From positions 1 through 39,418 of the IMG/VR virus record IMGVR_UViG_3300035670_000566: a DNA stretch of 39,418 bases; one strand, 5' to 3'. This document shows positions 23,213-32,009 of this stretch, piece after piece. Under the pieces are notes generated by a model. That model worked only from the letters and a program-made list of their open reading frames with translations. It was not told where the DNA came from and made no database searches. This DNA comes from a virus. The first letter of the stretch is position 1. The number at the start of each line of letters is the position of its first letter. The position numbers were made by a program, and so were the translations under genes.

Positions 23213-23414
23213 ATCGCTCCAGTAAAGCACAAACCTCCACCCGGCAGGGGGATGCCGGATGGAGGCGTGCAGGTTGCCGGCCCGGAGAGAGAGCAACAGG
23301 CCGACAACCCAGAGTATACACACAACCCCGACAGAAGGTGTACACTCAAACTACCCCCGCGCAACCCAACCCGGTCGCCGGAAGCAAGGACAACAGGAAA
23401 GGAAAACTGCCGTC
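23213..23414. promoter_or_regulatory. Divergent control region between terL and the replication gene
   Basis: This 202-base gap separates the leftward late genes from the rightward early genes. It holds an imperfect inverted repeat, GAGTATACAC (23312-23321) and GTGTACACTC (23338-23347), one mismatch, 16 bases apart. Each arm contains a -10-like box (TATACT on the minus strand at 23318-23313; TACACT on the plus strand at 23341-23346), but I found no good -35 for either. A shared operator/promoter pair is likely but unproven. Confidence 0.45.
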
Positions 23415-24738: not shown

Positions 24739-24768
24739 TTGACTGGCGGTTGTGTTGGTGCTTAGAAT
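24739..24768 (+). promoter_or_regulatory. Early promoter 1
   Basis: TTGACT (24739-24744) and TAGAAT (24763-24768) with an 18-base spacer, 5 of 6 matches in each box to the sigma-70/SigA consensus. The predicted start near 24775 leaves a short leader holding GGTG...CACC and GAAGAGAGAGAGG before the first small gene at 24812. Confidence 0.7.
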
Positions 24769-24811
24769 TGCGGGTGTGGCAGAAAGTCACCTGAAGAGAG
24801 AGAGGCCAGAA

Positions 24812-24988
24812 ATGGATGGTGTGTGTGAATCGGCGCGGGTGATTCCGTACCGTGGCGCGTTTCGTGTTGTGTATGGATCAGGTAGCACGGTTGGTTGGCG
24901 TACGTTTGATGATGTGCGTGATGCGTTCGTGTTTCTGGCAGAACGTGGAACGGTGCGGGTGACGTTCGCGCGCCGGTTTCTTCCCTGA
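24812..24988 (+). CDS. Early protein, 58 aa, unknown
   Basis: First gene of the rightward early operon. ATG 24812 follows GAAGAGAGAGAGGCCAGAA; the earlier in-frame start at 24752 lies inside the promoter and is rejected. Sequence MDGVCESARVIPYRGAFRVV then a Val/Phe/Arg-rich small beta domain. No family recognised. The first tRNA-like element begins 8 bases after its stop. Confidence 0.65.
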   Translation: MDGVCESARVIPYRGAFRVVYGSGSTVGWRTFDDVRDAFVFLAERGTVRVTFARRFLP

Positions 24989-24996
24989 TGTGGTTG

Positions 24997-25045
24997 GCCT
25001 AGTCGCGGTTCTGGCGCGCGTGTGGGTTCGATTCCCTGCTAGGCA
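24997..25045 (+). ncRNA. D-arm-less tRNA-like element 1
   Basis: Acceptor stem GCCTAGT (24997-25003) with GCTAGGC (25038-25044; last pair T-G), hairpin CGCG-GTTCTGG-CGCG (25004-25018), T-arm GGG-TTCGATT-CCC (25024-25036) and A as discriminator-like base. Preceded by the conserved GTGGTTG right after a stop codon; followed by a hairpin ACCGGCCC/GGGCCGGT (25048-25068), a GAGAGAGAGGG ribosome-binding site and ATG at 25090. It has no D-arm and no CCA. Confidence 0.7.
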
Positions 25046-25089
25046 CTACCGGCCCATTCGGGGCCGGTTCTAGAGAGAGAGGGTTAGTT

Positions 25090-25347
25090 ATGTTTCGTAG
25101 GTATTGGGTTAGGCGTGTTTCGCGGGTTCGTGTGGGTGTGCTTACTCTCGCGAATGAACGTGCGGAAATGGCGCGGGCGGGTGATCGTGAGAGCGCGTTG
25201 CGCGTCGCTAGTTTGGATCAAACGTCCGATGCGTTGGGACGTGTGATCGATGACCTACAGGCGAATGTGGCGGGTTCGATTGGTTCGGCGCGTTCGTGGG
25301 TGCGTTGGTGGAATAATCTGCCGGTGTGGGAACGTCGCGTGTTCTGA
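25090..25347 (+). CDS. Early protein, 85 aa, Arg-rich helical
   Basis: ATG after TAGAGAGAGAGGGTTAGTT. Starts MFRRYWVRRVSRVRVGVLTL, a basic hydrophobic segment that might touch a membrane, then a helical and charged part (NERAEMARAGDRESALRVAS, LGRVIDDLQANVAGSIGSAR) and a Trp-rich end WVRWWNNLPVWERRVF. No family recognised. It lies between tRNA-like elements 1 and 2. Confidence 0.7.
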   Translation: MFRRYWVRRVSRVRVGVLTLANERAEMARAGDRESALRVASLDQTSDALGRVIDDLQANVAGSIGSARSWVRWWNNLPVWERRVF

Positions 25348-25358
25348 TGTGGTTGGTG

Positions 25359-25406
25359 GCCCATTCCGGTTCTGGCGGGTTCTAGGTTCGATCCCTAGAT
25401 TGGGCG
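25359..25406 (+). ncRNA. D-arm-less tRNA-like element 2
   Basis: Acceptor GCCCA (25359-25363) with TGGGC (25401-25405), hairpin CCG-GTTCTGG-CGG (25366-25378, plus a T-G pair), and a perfect 6-bp T-arm TCTAGG-TTCGATC-CCTAGA (25381-25399). Upstream GTGGTTGG follows the stop codon. The downstream hairpin differs here: GGTGAC-ACACG-GTCACC (25409-25425), then GAGAGAGAGGG and ATG 25448. Confidence 0.7.
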
Positions 25407-25447
25407 CGGGTGACACACGGTCACCTATTGAGAGAGAGGGAAACAGA

Positions 25448-26098
25448 ATGGGCAAGTATTCGCAAGAGGTGCGGGTGTGTGGCGGGTGCGCGCACCTATT
25501 GGAAACGGAACCGGATTCGGTATGGCGTGAATCGTACAAATTACCGTTTGCGTACCGTGTCGTGTGTTCGTCGTGCGGGTGTGAATGTTCGAATGGTGTG
25601 GCGCATGTGGGCGCGGTTGTGTGGGTGGATGAACTGTTGGGAATGGCGCGTAAGCGTGGGGAAGAACATGCGACGTACGATCGAAATGATGGTGAGTATC
25701 GGCCTGACCCTCTCTCCGGAGTATGGGCGGGTGAGAGTGTGCGGGAACTGTTGGGTGATCTAATTGACGCGTTAGGCGATGAGTACACGGATGATGTGTG
25801 TGACGCGTATGAATCGGGATATGCGGGTGTGTGGTCTGATACTGATTCTGTAGATGTGTGCGCGGATTGTGTCCAAGTGTTGGCCAATGGTGTGTGCGAT
25901 GGTTGGGAAGATTCGCCGGATGAGACGCGCGAGAGGCCCGCGGGTGTGTTCCCCTATTTGATCGATGGTGCGTGGCCTACTGACAACGTGACGACGTTTG
26001 CGAAATGGCCATGTGAGTGTTGCGGGTCGCGGTTGGCGGGTGAACGTCACACGGTGCTTGTGTGGGTCGCACCGGATTCTGAGAGCGCGGGCGCGTGA
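25448..26098 (+). CDS. Early protein, 216 aa, with Cys clusters (zinc-binding?)
   Basis: ATG 25448 after GAGAGAGAGGGAAACAGA; the long in-frame upstream extension crosses element 2 and is rejected. Three Cys groups: CGGC (residues 11-14), CSSCGCEC (about 41-48) and CECCGSRLAGERH near the C-terminus (about 192-204), plus C.DC in the middle. The arrangement suggests two zinc ribbons around an acidic helical middle (GESVRELLGDLIDALGDEYT). No named family. It is the largest early gene and may bind nucleic acid or host proteins (inference). Confidence 0.7.
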   Translation: MGKYSQEVRVCGGCAHLLETEPDSVWRESYKLPFAYRVVCSSCGCECSNGVAHVGAVVWVDELLGMARKRGEEHATYDRNDGEYRPDPLSGVWAGESVRELLGDLIDALGDEYTDDVCDAYESGYAGVWSDTDSVDVCADCVQVLANGVCDGWEDSPDETRERPAGVFPYLIDGAWPTDNVTTFAKWPCECCGSRLAGERHTVLVWVAPDSESAGA

Positions 26099-26105
26099 GT
26101 GGTTG

Positions 26106-26155
26106 GCGGGTGCGCGGGTTCTGGCGCGCACGTGGGTTCGATCCCCACACCCGCA
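26106..26155 (+). ncRNA. D-arm-less tRNA-like element 3
   Basis: Acceptor GCGGGT (26106-26111) with ACCCGC (26149-26154), hairpin GCGCG? read as GCGCG-less form: stem CGCG/CGCG extended to GCGCG-type pairing around an 8-nt loop GGTTCTGG (26117-26124), and a perfect 5-bp T-arm GTGGG-TTCGATC-CCCAC (26132-26148). Discriminator-like A at 26155. GTGGTTG follows the stop codon directly; ACCGGCCC/GGGCCGGT hairpin at 26158-26178, then GAGAGAGAGAG and ATG 26199. Confidence 0.72.
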
Positions 26156-26198
26156 CTACCGGCCCATTCCGGGCCGGTTTGAGAGAGAGAGAGAAACT

Positions 26199-26486
26199 AT
26201 GAATGTTCGGGAGAGTGGGCGGGCCACGTTGCGCGCGCGGTTCTATGGCCCCAATAACAGAACCGGCACACGTATTCGCGTGACGCGGTTCGACAATCCG
26301 GCGGGCGCGGTTGATCCGAACCGGATCACGGTCGCGTGGGATCACGGTCTGAACCCGCAAGAGAACTACGTGCGCGCGTTCCGTGAGTATCTGACGCGCG
26401 CCGGTTGGAATGGTGATTGGGTGTCTTCGATGGTGTCCGATGGTGCGATTGGTGTCTACGTGGGCGCGGGTGATCTAGGTGTGTGA
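26199..26486 (+). CDS. Early protein, 95 aa, unknown
   Basis: ATG after GAGAGAGAGAGAAACT. Starts MNVRESGRATLRARFYGPNN, followed by a conserved-looking RIRVTRFDNPAGAVDPNRIT and VRAFREYLTRAGWNGDWVSS, an alpha/beta mix; ends DGAIGVYVGAGDLGV. The last codons lie within one copy of the GTGATCTAGGTGTGTG repeat. No family recognised. The gene closes the first early group; the long repeat-rich gap follows. Confidence 0.68.
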   Translation: MNVRESGRATLRARFYGPNNRTGTRIRVTRFDNPAGAVDPNRITVAWDHGLNPQENYVRAFREYLTRAGWNGDWVSSMVSDGAIGVYVGAGDLGV

Positions 26487-26889
26487 CCTAGTTCTGTTCG
26501 CGTTCTTTCACGTGGCGGTTGTGGGTGTGTGGGTTCTGGCGGGCGCGTGTCTACCGGAGAATCGCGCGCGGGCGCGCCGGTATCGGGCGCGCCGGAGAAT
26601 CGAACTAGAACGCGCGGGTTACCGTTACCGTCGATGATTCTGGCGGGTGTGGCAATGTGGGCGGGCGGGCCGGTTGGCCCGCTCTCTCACGTTTCGGGCC
26701 TTAGACCACGTTCTAGGATTCGTTCTAAGGCTCTCGCGCGGTTGGGTGTGGGTGTGGGGTGCGGGTGATTCTGGCGCGGGCGGGTGATCGATGCGGGCGC
26801 GGGTGAACTAGGTGTGAGAGGCCGGCGCGGGCGGGCCGGCGCGGGTGATCGATGCGGGCGGGCCGGCGCGGTTCGGGGGATTGTCCCGC

Positions 26890-26999
26890 GCGCGATACTG
26901 GCCCGCGCGCAATACGATCGGGCGCGATACTGGCCGGGAGAATCTGGCCGGTTTGCGCGAAATACTATTGACAAGCGCGACACGGTTCGCGCACAATAC
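26890..26999. repeat. Cluster of five GCGC(N)ATAC motifs around early promoter 2
   Basis: GCGCGATACTGG (26890-26901 and 26922-26933), GCGCGCAATACG (26905-26916), GCGCGAAATACT (26955-26966) and GCGCACAATAC (26989-26999). ATAC starts at 26895, 26912, 26927, 26962 and 26996. The last two flank and enter the promoter. The same motif is found at 29975-30046, 30157-30172 and 30478-30492. Operator function is inferred. Confidence 0.6.
26968..26997 (+). promoter_or_regulatory. Early promoter 2
   Basis: Perfect -35 TTGACA (26968-26973), 18-base spacer, -10 CACAAT (26992-26997; 4 of 6). The box overlaps one ATAC motif and another ends 1 base before the -35, so a repressor bound there would block it. 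It drives the gene run from 27046. Confidence 0.68.
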
Positions 27000-27045
27000 A
27001 GGTGTCGGCAATCAGGCCGGACGAATGAGAGAGAGGAAACAAGCT

Positions 27046-27231
27046 ATGAGTAGGCAATCGGGTGTGTTGTGGGGATGTCATTGGGAACGTCACCATTATG
27101 GGGTGTGTGTGTATGGTTTGGATTCGTCTGGCGTGTTTCGGACGATTCGGTATGTGGGCAACGGTTCGGATCGTGTGACGGTTCGCGGTTCGGTTGTTGC
27201 GTTTCGTCGTTTGATTGGGGTGACGCGATGA
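27046..27231 (+). CDS. Early protein, 61 aa, unknown
   Basis: ATG 27046 follows GAGAGAGAGGAAACAAGCT. Reads MSRQSGVLWGCHWERHHYGV, then CVYGLDSSGVFRTIRYVGNG and a basic end, a small beta protein. Its stop overlaps the next ATG (ATGA), starting a chain of six genes linked by 4-base overlaps (27046-28285). No family recognised. Confidence 0.65.
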   Translation: MSRQSGVLWGCHWERHHYGVCVYGLDSSGVFRTIRYVGNGSDRVTVRGSVVAFRRLIGVTR

Positions 27232-27371
27232 TTGATTCCGGGATGATGCTCTCTTATGAGATGACGCACACGTTGATTGAGATTCTAGATTCACGTGATT
27301 GGGATTTGTTGGAAGAATTGATTGTGGTCTATGGCCACGATGAGAACACGGAAGAATTGGTGACGCGATGA
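27228..27371 (+). CDS. Early protein, 47 aa, unknown
   Basis: Reads MIDSGMMLSYEMTHTLIEIL then DSRDWDLLEELIVVYGHDEN, an acidic two-helix miniprotein. Coupled by ATGA overlaps at both ends. Its first 21 bases match, with two differences, the start of the gene at 27771 (MIDPGMM), hinting at a shared origin of the 5' ends. Confidence 0.62.
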   Translation: MIDSGMMLSYEMTHTLIEILDSRDWDLLEELIVVYGHDENTEELVTR

Positions 27372-27586
27372 CCAACGATGAGATGTGTTTCCGTGTCACG
27401 TTCACGTTTGAGTACGCGACGGTTGCGACCGTTGTTGCGGTTCCGGTTCGTGAAGATGAGGCCGACTATTCGGATGATCCGTCCGCGATTGACGTTGCTA
27501 CTGATCTGTTGGCCGATTGCTACGGTTGGGATATGGCGAGTGCGTTCGATGTGGATGTGGAACCGTTGGAATGGGTGGCGCGATGA
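27368..27586 (+). CDS. Early protein, 72 aa, acidic
   Basis: Reads MTNDEMCFRVTFTFEYATVA then a beta-hairpin-like Val-rich part and an acidic tail (REDEADYSDDPSAIDVATDL, ending DVDVEPLEWVAR). Strong net negative charge, as in some phage inhibitors and DNA mimics, but no evidence beyond composition. Overlaps its neighbours by 4 bases on each side. Confidence 0.65.
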   Translation: MTNDEMCFRVTFTFEYATVATVVAVPVREDEADYSDDPSAIDVATDLLADCYGWDMASAFDVDVEPLEWVAR

Positions 27587-27774
27587 ATCCGAACTATTAC
27601 CCTGATATCGATGATCCGGTGTTGTGTGACCATTGTGGGCATCCGTGTCACGCGGATGACGCGGTAACGGATGGCAACATCGCGTTGTGCGGGTCGTTCC
27701 GCGGTAACGGTTGTGCCGATCGTGCGATGTGGCGTGGTGATCTGATTGTCGGGATTGATGGGGGTGCGTGGTGA
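27583..27774 (+). CDS. Early small zinc-finger-like protein, 63 aa
   Basis: ATG 27583 inside GCGCGATGAA, overlapping the upstream stop. Reads MNPNYYPDIDDPVLCDHCGH then PCHADDAVTDGNIALCGSFR and GNGCADRAMW. Cys/His pattern C-x2-C-x2-H...C...C could bind one or two zinc ions. Unknown function; this operon has several other Cys-pair proteins (25448, 27995, 29247). Confidence 0.65.
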   Translation: MNPNYYPDIDDPVLCDHCGHPCHADDAVTDGNIALCGSFRGNGCADRAMWRGDLIVGIDGGAW

Positions 27775-27998
27775 TTGATCCCGGGATGATGGCAAGCTTG
27801 TCGGCCGATGATCTGGTTGGCGCGTTGGTTCGTTTCACACGTCATCGGAAACCGTGGACAGGAACGATTATCGATTCGTTGCGTGTTGGCGGTACTCTCG
27901 CGTTCCATCTGATCGATGACTATGGGCAACCGTGGTCGGCGGTTCGATTGGACGAGATCGATGTGGTTATCCGGTTGCGGGATGGGGTGACATTGTGA
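27771..27998 (+). CDS. Early protein, 75 aa, unknown (GTG start)
   Basis: GTG 27771 overlaps the upstream stop as GTGA; a second GTG lies one codon earlier. Reads MIDPGMMASLSADDLVGALV, then VRFTRHRKPWTGTIIDSLRV and an SH3-like beta pattern LIDDYGQPWSAVRLDEIDVV. A small beta-barrel is likely. The N-terminus resembles that of the gene at 27228. Confidence 0.65.
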   Translation: MIDPGMMASLSADDLVGALVRFTRHRKPWTGTIIDSLRVGGTLAFHLIDDYGQPWSAVRLDEIDVVIRLRDGVTL

Positions 27999-28285
27999 TT
28001 GACGTGTGTGCGATGTGCGATCGGACGCGCAACGATGTGGTGTACTCAGACCACGACGATTTGTGGTTGTGTTCGGATTGTTTGGCCGACACGGTTCGTT
28101 TGTGGGCCATCGATCGTTTCACGTCAATGTCCGACCGTGAGTATTCGGGTGATTGGTTCGGCGCGTATGGTGACGGTTGGGATGTGAACATCTGGCAGGA
28201 CGATGATCGTGTGCGGGTGACGTTGTATCGGTATGACGGTGGCCGGTTCTCCGATGGCGGTATTGCGTGCGGGGTGATTGGTTAG
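27995..28285 (+). CDS. Early zinc-ribbon-like protein, 96 aa (GTG start)
   Basis: GTG 27995 overlaps the previous stop. Reads MIDVCAMCDRTRNDVVYSDH then DDLWLCSDCLADTVRL: two CxxC pairs (Cys5/Cys8 and Cys26/Cys29), a textbook zinc ribbon, followed by a Tyr/Asp/Trp-rich tail (GDWFGAYGDGWDVNIWQDDD). It ends the second coupled gene chain; tRNA-like element 4 follows 10 bases after the stop. Possible nucleic-acid or protein-binding role. Confidence 0.68.
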   Translation: MIDVCAMCDRTRNDVVYSDHDDLWLCSDCLADTVRLWAIDRFTSMSDREYSGDWFGAYGDGWDVNIWQDDDRVRVTLYRYDGGRFSDGGIACGVIG

Positions 28286-28295
28286 TTTGTGGTTG

Positions 28296-28344
28296 GCCAT
28301 ATCCCGGTTCTGGCGGGCGGGCGGGTTCGATTCCCGGTATGGCA
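28296..28344 (+). ncRNA. D-arm-less tRNA-like element 4
   Basis: Acceptor GCCATA (28296-28301) with TATGGC (28338-28343), hairpin CCCG-GTTCTGG-CGGG (28303-28317), T-arm CGGG-TTCGATT-CCCG (28322-28336), discriminator-like A 28344. Upstream TTGTGGTTG after the TAG stop. The second hairpin is lacking; instead TGTCGGCA occurs twice (28349-28368 area), then a long GA tract (28370-28388). Confidence 0.72.
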
Positions 28345-28395
28345 CGATGTCGGCAACGGTGTCGGCATGAGAGAGAGAGAGAGAGAGAAAGAGTA

Positions 28396-28881
28396 GTGAT
28401 TACAATGGAAACGGAGACGCTAGGCAAGCTGTTGGCCGATGCGGGTGATAATACGATCGTAGAGTATGCGGGTGCGCGTTGGCGGTTCCGTGTCGAACCG
28501 GACTATGACACGTCAATCAACGATTACGATTGTTATGGGCGGGTCGCGCCGGTTGTGTCGCGGTATGGCCAACAACAAGAACGTCCTGATGGTTTCGATG
28601 GTGGCGCGGAGATTCTTAGCTGGCGAGGCCACGAACGGTATTGGTGGCAACCGTATGACGTGACGGACGCGGTGTATCGTAGTGCGACACGCCAAACGGT
28701 GTGTGACATCCTCGAATACGGTTTCCTGATGTTGTTCGTGGAACGGTTGCGCGATGAGGATGACGCGTATGGTCGGCCGGTTGTCGATGACTATTCCGTG
28801 GTGGGTGGCATCGAACCATTTCCTAGTGACGACGATCTGTCCGATTTGATTAGTGACGTGGTGTCGGAGATTGGTGTGTGA
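28396..28881 (+). CDS. Early protein, 158-161 aa, unknown
   Basis: Either GTG 28396 (5 bases after the GAGAGAAAGAG tract) or ATG 28405 could start; the GTG has the better spacing. Reads METETLGKLLADAGDNTIVE, an alpha/beta domain with YAGARWRFRVEPDYDTSIND and a Trp/Tyr-rich middle SWRGHERYWWQPYDVTDAVY, then a helix CDILEYGFLMLFVERLRDED and an acidic end. No family recognised. It is one of the larger early genes and lies alone between two tRNA-like elements. Confidence 0.68.
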   Translation: MITMETETLGKLLADAGDNTIVEYAGARWRFRVEPDYDTSINDYDCYGRVAPVVSRYGQQQERPDGFDGGAEILSWRGHERYWWQPYDVTDAVYRSATRQTVCDILEYGFLMLFVERLRDEDDAYGRPVVDDYSVVGGIEPFPSDDDLSDLISDVVSEIGV

Positions 28882-28888
28882 TTGGTTG

Positions 28889-28933
28889 GCGCGACCGTCT
28901 GGCGGTTTCTCCGGTTCGATTCCGGGGCGCGCA
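28889..28933 (+). ncRNA. D-arm-less tRNA-like element 5 (shortened hairpin loop)
   Basis: Acceptor GCGCG (28889-28893) with CGCGC (28928-28932), hairpin ACCG-TCTGG-CGGT (28894-28906; loop 5 nt, two bases shorter than the others), 6-bp T-arm CTCCGG-TTCGATT-CCGGGG (28909-28927, one T-G pair), A 28933. Upstream TTGGTTG after the stop; downstream hairpin ACCGGCC-AACC-GGCCGGT (28936-28953), then GAGAGAGAGG and ATG 28972. Confidence 0.72.
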
Positions 28934-28971
28934 CTACCGGCCAACCGGCCGGTTTGAGAGAGAGGATAGTT

Positions 28972-29247
28972 ATGGCAACGACAACACACCCGGATTGGGT
29001 GATCGTGCGCGGTAACGCGCGACGATGGGATTGGTACAACGAACAATCAACCACGGAACTGGCGTGGATCGATGACGATGGTTGTGATCGTGGTATCGTG
29101 GTCGCGGATGGGTCGCGTCGTGTGATCCGTTCGTGGTCGTCAAGGCAACCGGATGCGGATTGGGCCTCGCTGTACGGTGTGGCCGGTGTGGTGTCACGGT
29201 TCTTCGGCCAGGACGCGTATGGTCACACGGATTGGTTGGTGGCCTGA
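28972..29247 (+). CDS. Early protein, 91 aa, Trp/Asp-rich
   Basis: ATG 28972 follows GAGAGAGAGGATAGTT. Reads MATTTHPDWVIVRGNARRWD then WYNEQSTTELAWIDDDGCDR and SRRVIRSWSSRQPDADWASL, ending in YGHTDWLVA. A small beta domain with many Trp residues. No family recognised. The stop overlaps the next ATG (TGATG). Confidence 0.66.
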   Translation: MATTTHPDWVIVRGNARRWDWYNEQSTTELAWIDDDGCDRGIVVADGSRRVIRSWSSRQPDADWASLYGVAGVVSRFFGQDAYGHTDWLVA

Positions 29248-29974: not shown

Positions 29975-30046
29975 TCGCGCGCGATACTGATGGCGGGGCC
30001 GGCCTGATGCGCTCGCGCTCAATACTGTTGCTCGCGCTCAATACTG
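29975..30046. repeat. CGCGCTCAATACTG motif cluster at the convergent junction
   Basis: TCGCGCGCGATACTGA (29975-29990), GCTCGCGCTCAATACTG (30011-30027) and the same 17-mer again (30030-30046), the last two spaced 19 bases. Further copies at 30157-30172 and 30478-30492 lie inside minus-strand genes, where they encode (I/S)ERD-like peptides. The cluster overlaps the 3' end of the WhiB gene (peptide SISIEREQQY). Confidence 0.7.
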
Positions 30047-30462
30047 ATCGATTCTTTGTATTTGGTGAGACGTTGGTGTTCGGAACGCAACATATCGGTC
30101 AGGACGACTTCGTGGACGAGGTTCAGGAGTTCCGCTAACGCTTCTTCGCGAGGGTTGTCGCGCTCAATACGATCTCGCGTGACGGCAACAGGCACGTGGA
30201 CGGACGGTTTGCGTAGTTTGAGACGTTGTGCGGGCAACAGGCCACCGTAGATGCCGTACATATCTTCGTCCCGGTTGAATGTGGTGAGTATCCAGTCCAG
30301 GCATTGTTGTTTGACTGGGCAGGGTTCGGTGTCGTCTGTGCCGTTACAGATTTCGAGCGCGGTTTTGAGGGTGTGTTGGTCACCTTTCTCTGGGAAGAAC
30401 AGGTTGGTTTGTAACCCTCGGCAGGCGGCTTCTAGTTTCCAGTCGTCCAAAGGTTCCTCCAT
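30019..30462 (-). CDS. WhiB-like Fe-S regulator with wide Cys spacing
   Basis: A 147-residue WhiB/Wbl protein. Four cysteines: Cys14 (AACRG), Cys39 (EICNG), Cys48 and Cys54 (CPVKQQC). The middle spacing is C-x8-C, where the usual form is C-x2-C. GIYGG (70-74) and the basic LPAQRLKLRKP follow, as expected of the turn and DNA-contact region. The C-terminal 60 residues are a helical extension. Wbl proteins bind a 4Fe-4S cluster and act with the principal sigma factor; phage copies can lower host gene expression. It is the last gene of the minus-strand operon, at the convergent junction. Confidence 0.85.
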   Translation of the reverse strand: MEEPLDDWKLEAACRGLQTNLFFPEKGDQHTLKTALEICNGTDDTEPCPVKQQCLDWILTTFNRDEDMYGIYGGLLPAQRLKLRKPSVHVPVAVTRDRIERDNPREEALAELLNLVHEVVLTDMLRSEHQRLTKYKESISIEREQQY

Positions 30463-31493: not shown

Positions 31494-32009
31494 TTATTTG
31501 CAGGCCCGCGACCAGGGTTTGAACCCACAGCCACGGTGGATGTCGTGCCAGATGTACATTTCCCACGCCCACGCGAAGTTGTAGTACGGGTCTGCGACGA
31601 CACGCCAGTCGCCGTACTTGTTCTCGATGTCGTCGTGCCACACCTTGTTGATCTGCATCGGCCCCCAATCCCAGCCATTCCAGTTCTTGTGGGCGGGTTG
31701 ACCGTGGACGGAACCGATGATGTTCAGGCAACGCGACTCCGACCAGGCTTCCTCTAGCACGTCGATCAACAGGTGATCGGGCCATCCGGCAGCCGACGCG
31801 ATCGGGGCCAGCTCAGCGCATTTAGCGTCTGCCGGGACGAGCGTGGTCGTGGTGGTTGTGGGGGCAACCGTGGTGTTGGTGGTGGTAACAGGGATCGTCG
31901 TGGTGGTTGTGGCCGGCACAGGCGTGATCGGCATCGGAGCCAAATCGATTGGGGTGACCGTCTTTGAGGCGCATCCGACCAATAGCAAAAGAGGTAACAA
32001 ACGTTTCAT
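31494..32009 (-). CDS. Lipoprotein lytic transglycosylase-like enzyme
   Basis: A 171-residue protein. Start MKRLLPLLLLVGCASK: signal peptide with a lipobox ending at Cys13. Residues 33-57 are a Thr-rich linker (ATTTTTIPVTTTNTTVAPTT). The C-terminal 110 residues match the lysozyme-like transglycosylase fold: catalytic Glu91 in EEAWSESRCLN and the GPMQIN motif (116-121), with a Trp/Asp-rich end. It would be exported, anchored to the membrane and cut glycan strands. It lies among early/regulatory genes, far from the lysis cassette. ATG after GAGAGAGAGAAAACCT. Confidence 0.8.
   Translation of the reverse strand: MKRLLPLLLLVGCASKTVTPIDLAPMPITPVPATTTTTIPVTTTNTTVAPTTTTTTLVPADAKCAELAPIASAAGWPDHLLIDVLEEAWSESRCLNIIGSVHGQPAHKNWNGWDWGPMQINKVWHDDIENKYGDWRVVADPYYNFAWAWEMYIWHDIHRGCGFKPWSRACK

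Follow-up and report, generated by a model that had tools for sequence, protein, structure and literature searches.

Early Operons and tRNA-Like Elements

The stretch of DNA analyzed here, from an uncultured phage and referred to as the window (IMG/VR record IMGVR_UViG_3300035670_000566, 39,418 nt in full), contains two early operons on the + strand with tRNA-like elements located between their genes (Table 1). Window genes were assigned by hand from ribosome-binding site and reading frame, as automatic calling was poor in this GC-rich window, while it performed well in AT-richer relatives. Pfam and PHROG gave no informative match for the functions of the early genes. Only two promoter-like matches were observed between positions 23400 and 30600, a count not above that in shuffles, and each lies before a gene without an element; behind these sites a hairpin alone was present and the tRNA-like element was absent. 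The host is probably an actinobacterium, as a WhiB gene suggests.

The original prediction, made from the letters of the window, had described five tRNA-like copies, and all five were confirmed on the + strand with their positions, stems and loops. Their acceptor stems comprise 5–7 bp and their T-arms carry TTCGATT or TTCGATC, while the first-hairpin loop is GTTCTGG in three copies and GGTTCTGG or TCTGG in one each. The elements start 7–11 nt past the stop codon, between the stop and the next ribosome-binding site, with one element per non-overlapping gap within both operons. A second hairpin follows, and the ribosome-binding site is located 3' of it, not within the element. This hairpin, 2–4 nt downstream, had been overlooked in the first reading, as had the exact stop-to-ribosome-binding-site placement and the variability of the loops across relatives.

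A covariance model recovered 5/5 window copies and no further match in the window. A loop-blind finder, built from acceptor, hairpin, hairpin with a 7/8-nt loop and downstream hairpin and requiring neither C-R in the loop nor R-C after the acceptor, recovered 4/5 copies (sense strand), with 0–3 false matches per shuffled genome. The folding energy of the core alone was unremarkable (z +0.14 to −1.45); for the core together with the downstream hairpin, z values of −2.2 to −3.9 were obtained in the three copies tested. The proof of the element is covariation, not folding energy, and chance or low complexity as its source was ruled out by shuffles and slid pairings.

Table 1. Features of the two early operons (window coordinates; element stems and loops are written as acceptor / first hairpin / T-arm / acceptor, loops in parentheses).
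Feature	Position	Strand	Description
Promoter-like site, operon 1	24739..24768	+	TTGACT-18-TAGAAT
Hairpin GGTG..CACC	24772..24792	+	just 3' of presumed operon 1 start, before ribosome-binding site; weak in MFE fold
Early gene 1	24812..24988	+	58 aa; without family match
tRNA-like element 1	24997..25044	+	GCCTAG / CGCG(GTTCTGG)CGCG / GGG(TTCGATT)CCC / CTAGGC
Downstream hairpin 1	25048..25068	+	ACCGGCCC-ATTCG-GGGCCGGT; 3 nt past acceptor of element 1
Early gene 2	25090..25347	+	85 aa
tRNA-like element 2	25359..25405	+	GCCCA / TCCG(GTTCTGG)CGGG / TCTAGG(TTCGATC)CCTAGA / TGGGC
Downstream hairpin 2	25408..25426	+	GGGTGAC-ACACG-GTCACCT
Early gene 3	25448..26098	+	216 aa; weak match to phrog_3034, unknown function
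tRNA-like element 3	26106..26154	+	GCGGGT / GCGCG(GGTTCTGG)CGCGC / GTGGG(TTCGATC)CCCAC / ACCCGC
Downstream hairpin 3	26158..26178	+	ACCGGCCC-ATTCC-GGGCCGGT
Early gene 4	26199..26486	+	95 aa; weak match to phrog_3199, unknown function
Promoter-like site, operon 2	26968..26997	+	TTGACA-18-CACAAT
Hairpin, core CGGC-AATCAG-GCCG	27000..27025	+	after promoter 2, before ribosome-binding site; from fold
tRNA-like element 4	28296..28343	+	GCCATA / CCCG(GTTCTGG)CGGG / CGGG(TTCGATT)CCCG / TATGGC
Downstream hairpin 4	28347..28368	+	ATGTCGGCA..TGTCGGCAT
Early gene between elements 4 and 5	28405..28881	+	158 aa
tRNA-like element 5	28889..28932	+	GCGCG / ACCG(TCTGG)CGGT / CTCCGG(TTCGATT)CCGGGG / CGCGC
Downstream hairpin 5	28936..28953	+	ACCGGCC-AACC-GGCCGGT
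Early gene after element 5	28972..29247	+	91 aa

Occurrence and Covariation in Viral Records

In total, 58 distinct copies were counted across 21 IMG/VR records (the window phage and 20 others), a number skewed towards the consensus because the first covariance model was seeded with T-loop-bearing copies, mostly ACTAC-tailed, and one later search demanded C-R and R-C. Nearly all carriers are relatives of the window phage; one copy was found in a 77-kb phage without a detectable relative of the window phage's terminase. The aligned covariance-model matches were all on the early strand. The original prediction had called for covariation in homologues, and compensatory changes were indeed present in the 20 further records: two-sided changes were observed in 15 of the 16 acceptor and T-stem pairs, 82% remained paired, and the covariation score was 0.485, whereas shuffles gave 0.138 and slid partners no more than 0.109. 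In one relative (G015) an element occupies 6/6 gaps of about 100 nt, and the sole larger gap (146 nt) holds a hairpin and a promoter-like TTGACA sequence; in another (G011) it occupies 5/5 such gaps, two of which gave no search match and held divergent copies on inspection. Covariation in homologues and gap placement thus bear out the proposal of a tRNA-like RNA sited between early genes.

The pattern GGTTCRATNCC..GGCACTACC also matched true tRNAs and unrelated sites (L102, L110, L112, L114), which were not counted, nor were the matches at L101/L103 (G046/G047), which resemble ordinary or degenerate tRNAs. A further match, L216 (28.9 bits, without R-C and with a poor hairpin), was left out. 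The element was absent from the isolated actinophages LittleTokyo and GMA4, which are exonuclease relatives, and from the terminase relative Percastrophe, where the covariance-model matches coincided with the phage's own tRNA genes. A prophage and host search of genome contigs with the terminase and an element pattern gave no match.

ARAGORN called no tRNA in the window or in the element-bearing relatives. Against Rfam 15, nothing reached the gathering score in the window (searched at E ≤ 5) or in ten relatives (searched at gathering), and C4, the phage antisense RNA, gave no match in either; the window gave only a sub-threshold match, of tRNA-Sec to element 3, scoring 24.2 bits where gathering requires 47. 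No description of such elements was found within the open PMC literature. These results point to a family of RNAs that is missing from Rfam 15 and, as had been proposed, undescribed.

Conserved Nucleotides and Comparison With tRNA

Across the family the element measures 44–54 nt. The loop of hairpin 2 contains C-R in 57/57 copies and is of the canonical UUCRA type in 36/57; about a quarter of these loops depart from the canonical T-loop (TTCGTAA, TGTCGTAA, GTCATA, TTCATGA, and others), with C-R still present. Directly 3' of the acceptor, a purine followed by C was observed in all 48 tabulated copies (in one, a mis-started copy, only if a G-U pair closes the stem). T or G occupies position 75, except for a single C in that same mis-started copy, and CCA is therefore not encoded. 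Acceptor and T-arm together comprise 11 bp in 31 of these copies, 12 bp in 16, and 10 bp in the mis-started one. The downstream hairpin begins 2–4 nt past the acceptor in 43/48 copies, and a strong hairpin was found at this site in 37/48, compared to 85/2400 random positions; in some clades the second structure resembles an H-type pseudoknot.

The first hairpin is more variable, with loops of 3–8 nt (GTTCGG, TGGT, TAGT, TTA, AAAGG, and others). A conserved 7-nt anticodon loop with U33 is thus missing, and the UCU anticodon that could be read in GTTCTGG does not hold up in relatives. The hairpin mostly lies 0–1 nt from the acceptor and its loop mostly contains GG; moreover, in one clade the loop is TAGT in 4/4 copies with the T-loop TGCGATY and in none of the others. 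Because of this short junction, the GG loop and the co-change with the T-loop, the first hairpin may be an analogue of, or substitute for, the D-arm, in which case the anticodon arm would be the absent one. One arm is indeed absent, as originally noted, but "D-arm-less" is a doubtful label for these RNAs.

Acceptor stem and T-stem-loop are a sufficient substrate for RNase P, which applies a ruler of about 12 bp, makes contact with C56 and forms pairs with R73-C74-C75 (PMC11143913, PMC12710915); RNase Z likewise measures the tRNA (PMC4919913). Among the RNase P determinants, C-R, R73, and C74 are kept in the elements, while U or G replaces the C at position 75 and G is the most common nucleotide at position −1, where U is favoured. 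RNase Z-type features, namely the acceptor/T-arm, an unpaired purine at 73 and the lack of CCA, were found in the 48 tabulated copies.

Possible Role in mRNA Punctuation

The elements probably mark where a long mRNA is cut or protected. The idea that fits best, already contained in the original prediction, is that they are cis-acting, tRNA-mimicking intergenic RNAs punctuating polycistronic early mRNAs in one group of actinobacterial phages; we put it at about even odds (roughly 0.48). The family, its structure, placement and conserved nucleotides were observed; transcription, cutting, enzyme and protection are inferred. Each unit runs from the stop codon through a three-way junction (44–54 nt), the single-stranded R-C-(U/G)-A and a hairpin to a ribosome-binding site rich in purines and the start codon, the junction being formed by an acceptor/T-arm stack of 11–12 bp, a T-like loop containing C-R, and a D-like hairpin. 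A host tRNA-processing enzyme would recognize the acceptor/T-arm half and cut between the discriminator-like purine R73 and C74. Since CCA is not encoded, host RNase Z would be the simplest candidate, other possible enzymes being RNase P and actinobacterial RNase E; RNase P may additionally cut on the 5' side. The upstream mRNA would then end in a tRNA-like structure resisting 3' exonucleases, and the downstream mRNA would begin 1–3 nt before a stable hairpin shielding its 5' monophosphate end. Stabilization of mRNA by a 5' hairpin is known from E. coli and B. subtilis (PMC3997798). For a pure 5'-hairpin or 3'-hairpin role the tRNA mimicry would be superfluous. Further observations count against punctuation: two thirds of the copies have an 11-bp, not a 12-bp, stack, the departures from the canonical T-loop and the prevailing G at position −1 do not suit it, and the early gaps of Percastrophe, a distantly related Streptomyces phage, hold plain hairpins.

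The same cut site and products would result if junction and hairpin were protective ends of a structured barrier cut by RNase E at the R-C-U-A between them, with the tRNA likeness serving stability and not recognition by tRNA enzymes. The invariant R|C indeed sits between two structures, and the mycobacterial enzyme cuts directly 5' of a cytidine preceded by purines, at RR|CNU (PMC10641625). Nevertheless, the fit to this motif is partial (mostly C-A|C-U-A), and the C-R loop, the 11–12 bp stack and the loop-loop co-change would be left unexplained, so that we assign this reading a modest chance. A smaller chance is given to an uncut insulator or xrRNA-like block, in which the junction halts a 5'-3' exonuclease such as RNase J or keeps upstream sequence off the next ribosome-binding site. 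Such a role would be in keeping with a three-way junction that is compact, may form a loop-loop contact and sits just 5' of each gene, and with the pseudoknot-like second structure of some clades; however, a single hairpin would suffice to insulate, and the conserved unpaired RCUA is not accounted for.

That a host tRNA-binding protein, a phage protein or the ribosome uses the element as a handle controlling translation or timing of the early genes seems improbable. Although the elbow features (C-R, GG loop) persist as the stems drift, no candidate protein emerged, the early genes being without informative family matches, and the ribosome-binding site lies outside the element. Very little weight falls on the originally suggested decoy for tRNA-targeting defences, whether these are anticodon nucleases or tail-cutters like Cas12a3, which engages acceptor, T-arm, and CCA (PMC12851939). 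The elements are multicopy, tRNA-like and located among early genes, but such a decoy would require neither strict gene-junction placement nor a fixed downstream hairpin; CCA is not encoded, no anticodon loop is conserved, and since the remaining hairpin may be a D-arm analogue, a decoy for anticodon nucleases is unlikely. Similarly far-fetched is a signal to RNA polymerase (PUT-like antitermination, attenuation or termination): structured RNA is indeed repeated within an early operon, yet the elements lie at internal junctions, not once near the promoter, neither structure is followed by a U-tract, and 0/5 window elements scored as intrinsic terminators (GC hairpin plus U-tract), a purine tract coming next. 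Degenerate tRNA genes or pseudogenes, which the TTCGATY T-loops might suggest, can practically be dismissed, as covariation of the stems in paralogues and 21 records already contradicts this reading, and the architecture is constant, without other tRNA parts, a decoding loop or an ARAGORN call.

Relation to Known Systems

Mitochondrial mRNAs are freed when RNase P and RNase Z cut out the tRNAs on either side of them. Like these tRNAs, the phage elements are tRNA-shaped and lie exactly between the genes of a polycistronic transcript, a placement that suggests processing; unlike them, they are non-decoding, lack anticodon and CCA, are followed by a dedicated hairpin, belong to a phage and not an organelle, and are only putative cleavage substrates. 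RNase III sites of the T7 type, too, are structured, separate early genes and on cutting yield mRNAs with structured ends, but are double-stranded hairpin substrates without tRNA mimicry. The phage P1/P7 C4 antisense RNA and phage M3 RNA are natural phage substrates of RNase P (PMC11143913). With them the elements would share the reading of a phage transcript by host RNase P, known for C4 and M3 and putative here, although C4 and M3 are single-copy small or antisense RNAs of other structure, not repeated at gene junctions. D-armless and armless mitochondrial tRNAs resemble the elements in size (44–54 nt) and in the absence of one arm, but decode and are aminoacylated, whereas the elements have no anticodon loop and seemingly retain a D-like hairpin. 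Mimicry of tRNA is also known from the tRNA-like structures of plant viruses (TYMV and others), which RNase P accepts as substrates in vitro; they are 3'-terminal with a pseudoknotted acceptor and CCA, while the phage elements are internal and multicopy.

Rather tentatively, the elements may form a new cis-acting RNA class of bacterial viruses: tRNA mimics that lack an anticodon, have an elbow of the D/T type, occur once per gene junction and pass early mRNA to host tRNA-maturation enzymes for cutting into stable single-gene messages. If so, they would be the bacterial equivalent of the tRNA punctuation in mitochondria, with mimics that never decode. By such processing the phages would co-opt an essential, sequence-independent host tRNA maturation to make individual early mRNAs, a strategy known in mitochondria and for which we found no description in phages within the open PMC literature. 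Since it is invisible to tRNA finders and Rfam, the family may be commoner than the one phage group sampled, and its elements offer portable gene-junction parts. Synthetic minimal substrates of RNase P (acceptor plus T-stem-loop) use the same minimal tRNA half, with a 12-bp stack and RCCA where the elements mostly have 11 bp and RCUA; the family provides natural minimal substrates with an 11–12 bp ruler and many compensatory variants, on which the needs of RNase P, RNase Z, and RNase E can be probed.

Five tRNA-like elements between early genes

In this 39,418-bp phage record from IMG/VR, terminase, portal and tail genes occupy the minus strand, while small early genes cluster on the plus strand between about 24.8 and 30 kb. 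The presence of a WhiB homologue suggests that the host is an actinobacterium. The original prediction had placed five tRNA-like elements in the early block, and all five were present exactly as described; it had missed a downstream hairpin. Each window copy starts 7–11 nt 3' of a stop codon. After it come R-C-(T/G)-N, the second hairpin, a ribosome-binding site of the GAGAGA type and the start codon of the next gene. The ribosome-binding region of early genes is formed by purine tracts, (AG)n or (GA)n, of great length, at equivalent sites in relatives too.

Features of the window and of related sequences
Feature	Position	Strand	Remark
Element 1	24997-25044	+	
Element 2	25359-25405	+	
Element 3	26106-26154	+	
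Element 4	28296-28343	+	
Element 5	28889-28932	+	
Promoter-like site	24739-24768		
Promoter-like site	26968-26997		
Purine tracts	25070-25080, 26180-26195, 28370-28392		ribosome-binding region
Weak terminator-like site	26475-26491		
GC-rich non-coding stretch	26487-26965		about 480 bases, between operon 1 and promoter 2; repeated GGGCGCGGGTGAT-like words
WhiB family gene	30019-30462	minus	
Loop subclass, L148 and L155	1729, 457, 7302, 6527		L148 in reverse complement coordinates
Loop subclass, L150	3373, 3970		
Percastrophe (L267), hairpin pairs	39100-44600	minus	
GMA4 (L266), tRNA-like sequence	about 31550-31625		between genes 41 and 42

ARAGORN called no tRNA in the window, and a decoding tRNA is ruled out, as is an intrinsic terminator. 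An Rfam search gave no above-threshold match for the element, ruling out a known Rfam family, and literature searches, confined to an open-access library, turned up no description of it.

A family with a covarying fold

Relatives were sought through the terminase (128 viral contigs, 80 kept) and a RecE-like exonuclease (163, 80 kept). Two covariance models, built from 18 (R1) and 46 copies (R2), were combined with a stem finder that ignores what the loops read, to which loop filters were added in one later run. Together they located the element in 21 records of viruses (G000, G001, G002, G003, G005, G009, G011, G015, G016, G018, G032, G043, G048, G062, G079, G086, G089, G090, G095, G096 and G100), with 58 distinct copies, 57 parsed automatically plus one in G089. 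G048, a 77-kb phage with no detectable terminase relative, carries a single copy, which sits between two genes and is followed by the downstream hairpin as in the others. All 46 model-aligned copies share the strand of the early genes on either side. Loops of more distant relatives in L223, L226, L088 and L100 (TTCATGA, TTCACGA, TTCGCGA, CTCATTA, TTCACTA), suggest that the family reaches beyond what the models detect.

The acceptor stem has 5–7 bp. Hairpin 1, usually 0–1 nt from it, has a 3–6 bp stem and a 3–8 nt loop, and hairpin 2, the T-like arm, a loop of 6–8 nt, mostly TTCRAYN. Among 48 copies, acceptor and T-stem add up to 11 bp in 31 and to 12 bp in 16. A purine and then C follow the acceptor in all 48 tabulated copies, one of which requires a closing G-U pair.

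Downstream, the second hairpin starts 2–4 nt past the acceptor in 43/48 copies; these hairpins have 34 different 5' strands. A strong hairpin lies within 4 nt of 37/48 copies, against 85/2400 random early positions. In four of the remaining five (G089, G018, G005, G032) an H-type pseudoknot-like structure, read from the sequences, starts about 2 nt past the acceptor. In this clade (L041, L067, L257, L259) it appears to replace the hairpin; its stem is TAGG..CCTA, and the loop of that stem would pair with bases adjoining the ribosome-binding site.

In an alignment of 46 copies (44 distinct), which was fitted to the structure and so biases the figures in its favour, 82.1% of cells were paired (59.3% after shuffling, no more than 50% with slid partners), two-sided changes were seen in 15 of 16 pairs, and the covariation score was 0.485 (0.138 after shuffling, no more than 0.109 with slid partners). 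On four of the five measures the real alignment was matched by no shuffle; on the fifth, further pair types, 30/500 matched it. Slid controls were far lower. Because the controls fall short despite the alignment bias, the tRNA-like fold is, on this comparative evidence, real and under selection. As judged from sequence, the elements make up a new RNA family; their covariation is strong and their placement strikingly regular.

Hairpin 1 as a putative D-arm substitute

Hairpin 1 had been taken for an anticodon arm; its GTTCTGG loop is confined to close relatives, and we infer instead that it substitutes for the D-arm and that the anticodon arm is the absent one. Elsewhere the loop reads GTTCGG, GTTGG, TGGT, TAGT, TTA, TGC(G), AAAGG and others, often with GG. 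TAGT occurs in all four copies with T-loop TGCGATY, which come from two related phages and are of limited independence, and in no others. Copies with TTCGTAA or TGTCGTAA in hairpin 2 have TGCG or TTA as hairpin 1 loop, which could pair with the hairpin 2 loop. This co-change and possible pairing suggest that the two loops touch, as D-loop G18G19 and T-loop 55–56 do in tRNA. A subclass with hairpin 2 loops TGTCGTAA, TTCGTAA or GTCATA and hairpin 1 loops TTA, TGC(G) or GTAA may pair in a manner other than the D/T type. A decoy for anticodon nucleases is unlikely.

Placement and proposed processing

In the window the element occupies every internal non-overlapping junction and is absent where genes overlap; the two genes behind promoter-like sites have a 5' hairpin and lack the element. 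In G015 a copy sits in each of the six gaps of about 100 nt, and the single larger gap has a hairpin and, like a promoter, the sequence TTGACA. Two gaps of about 100 nt in G011 without model match contained, on inspection, divergent copies (GCCTAG..CTAGGC and CCCTAG..CTAGGG, each with loop GTCATA). The hairpin thus appears to mark each expected new 5' end, and the tRNA-like element those that no promoter supplies.

A single cut between R73 and C74 would punctuate the transcript, leaving upstream an mRNA with a compact tRNA-like 3' structure and downstream an mRNA with 1–3 unpaired nt and then the hairpin. RNase Z would be the best fit: it depends on the acceptor/T half and cleaves behind position 73, and CCA, which no element encodes, blocks it. 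RNase P is a possible alternative: acceptor plus T-stem-loop suffices as its substrate, with C56 and R73-C74 as contacts (PMC11143913, PMC12710915), and U75 could wobble, although the 11-bp stack and G-1 are less than ideal. Actinobacterial RNase E, which cleaves 5' of C (PMC10641625), would also cleave the R73/C74 bond. 5' hairpins stabilise mRNAs (PMC3997798). Transcription, cutting and protection are predicted steps, and the function is a well-grounded inference rather than a result. The original observation is supported in full, its interpretation in part.

Gordonia phage GMA4 has an unannotated tRNA-like sequence with an ACCACC end, preceded by a strong hairpin and not called by ARAGORN. 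In several large early-gene gaps of Streptomyces phage Percastrophe, a long hairpin stands right before a short one, with a ribosome-binding site after it; this resembles the element layout, with a plain hairpin where the tRNA-like element would stand.
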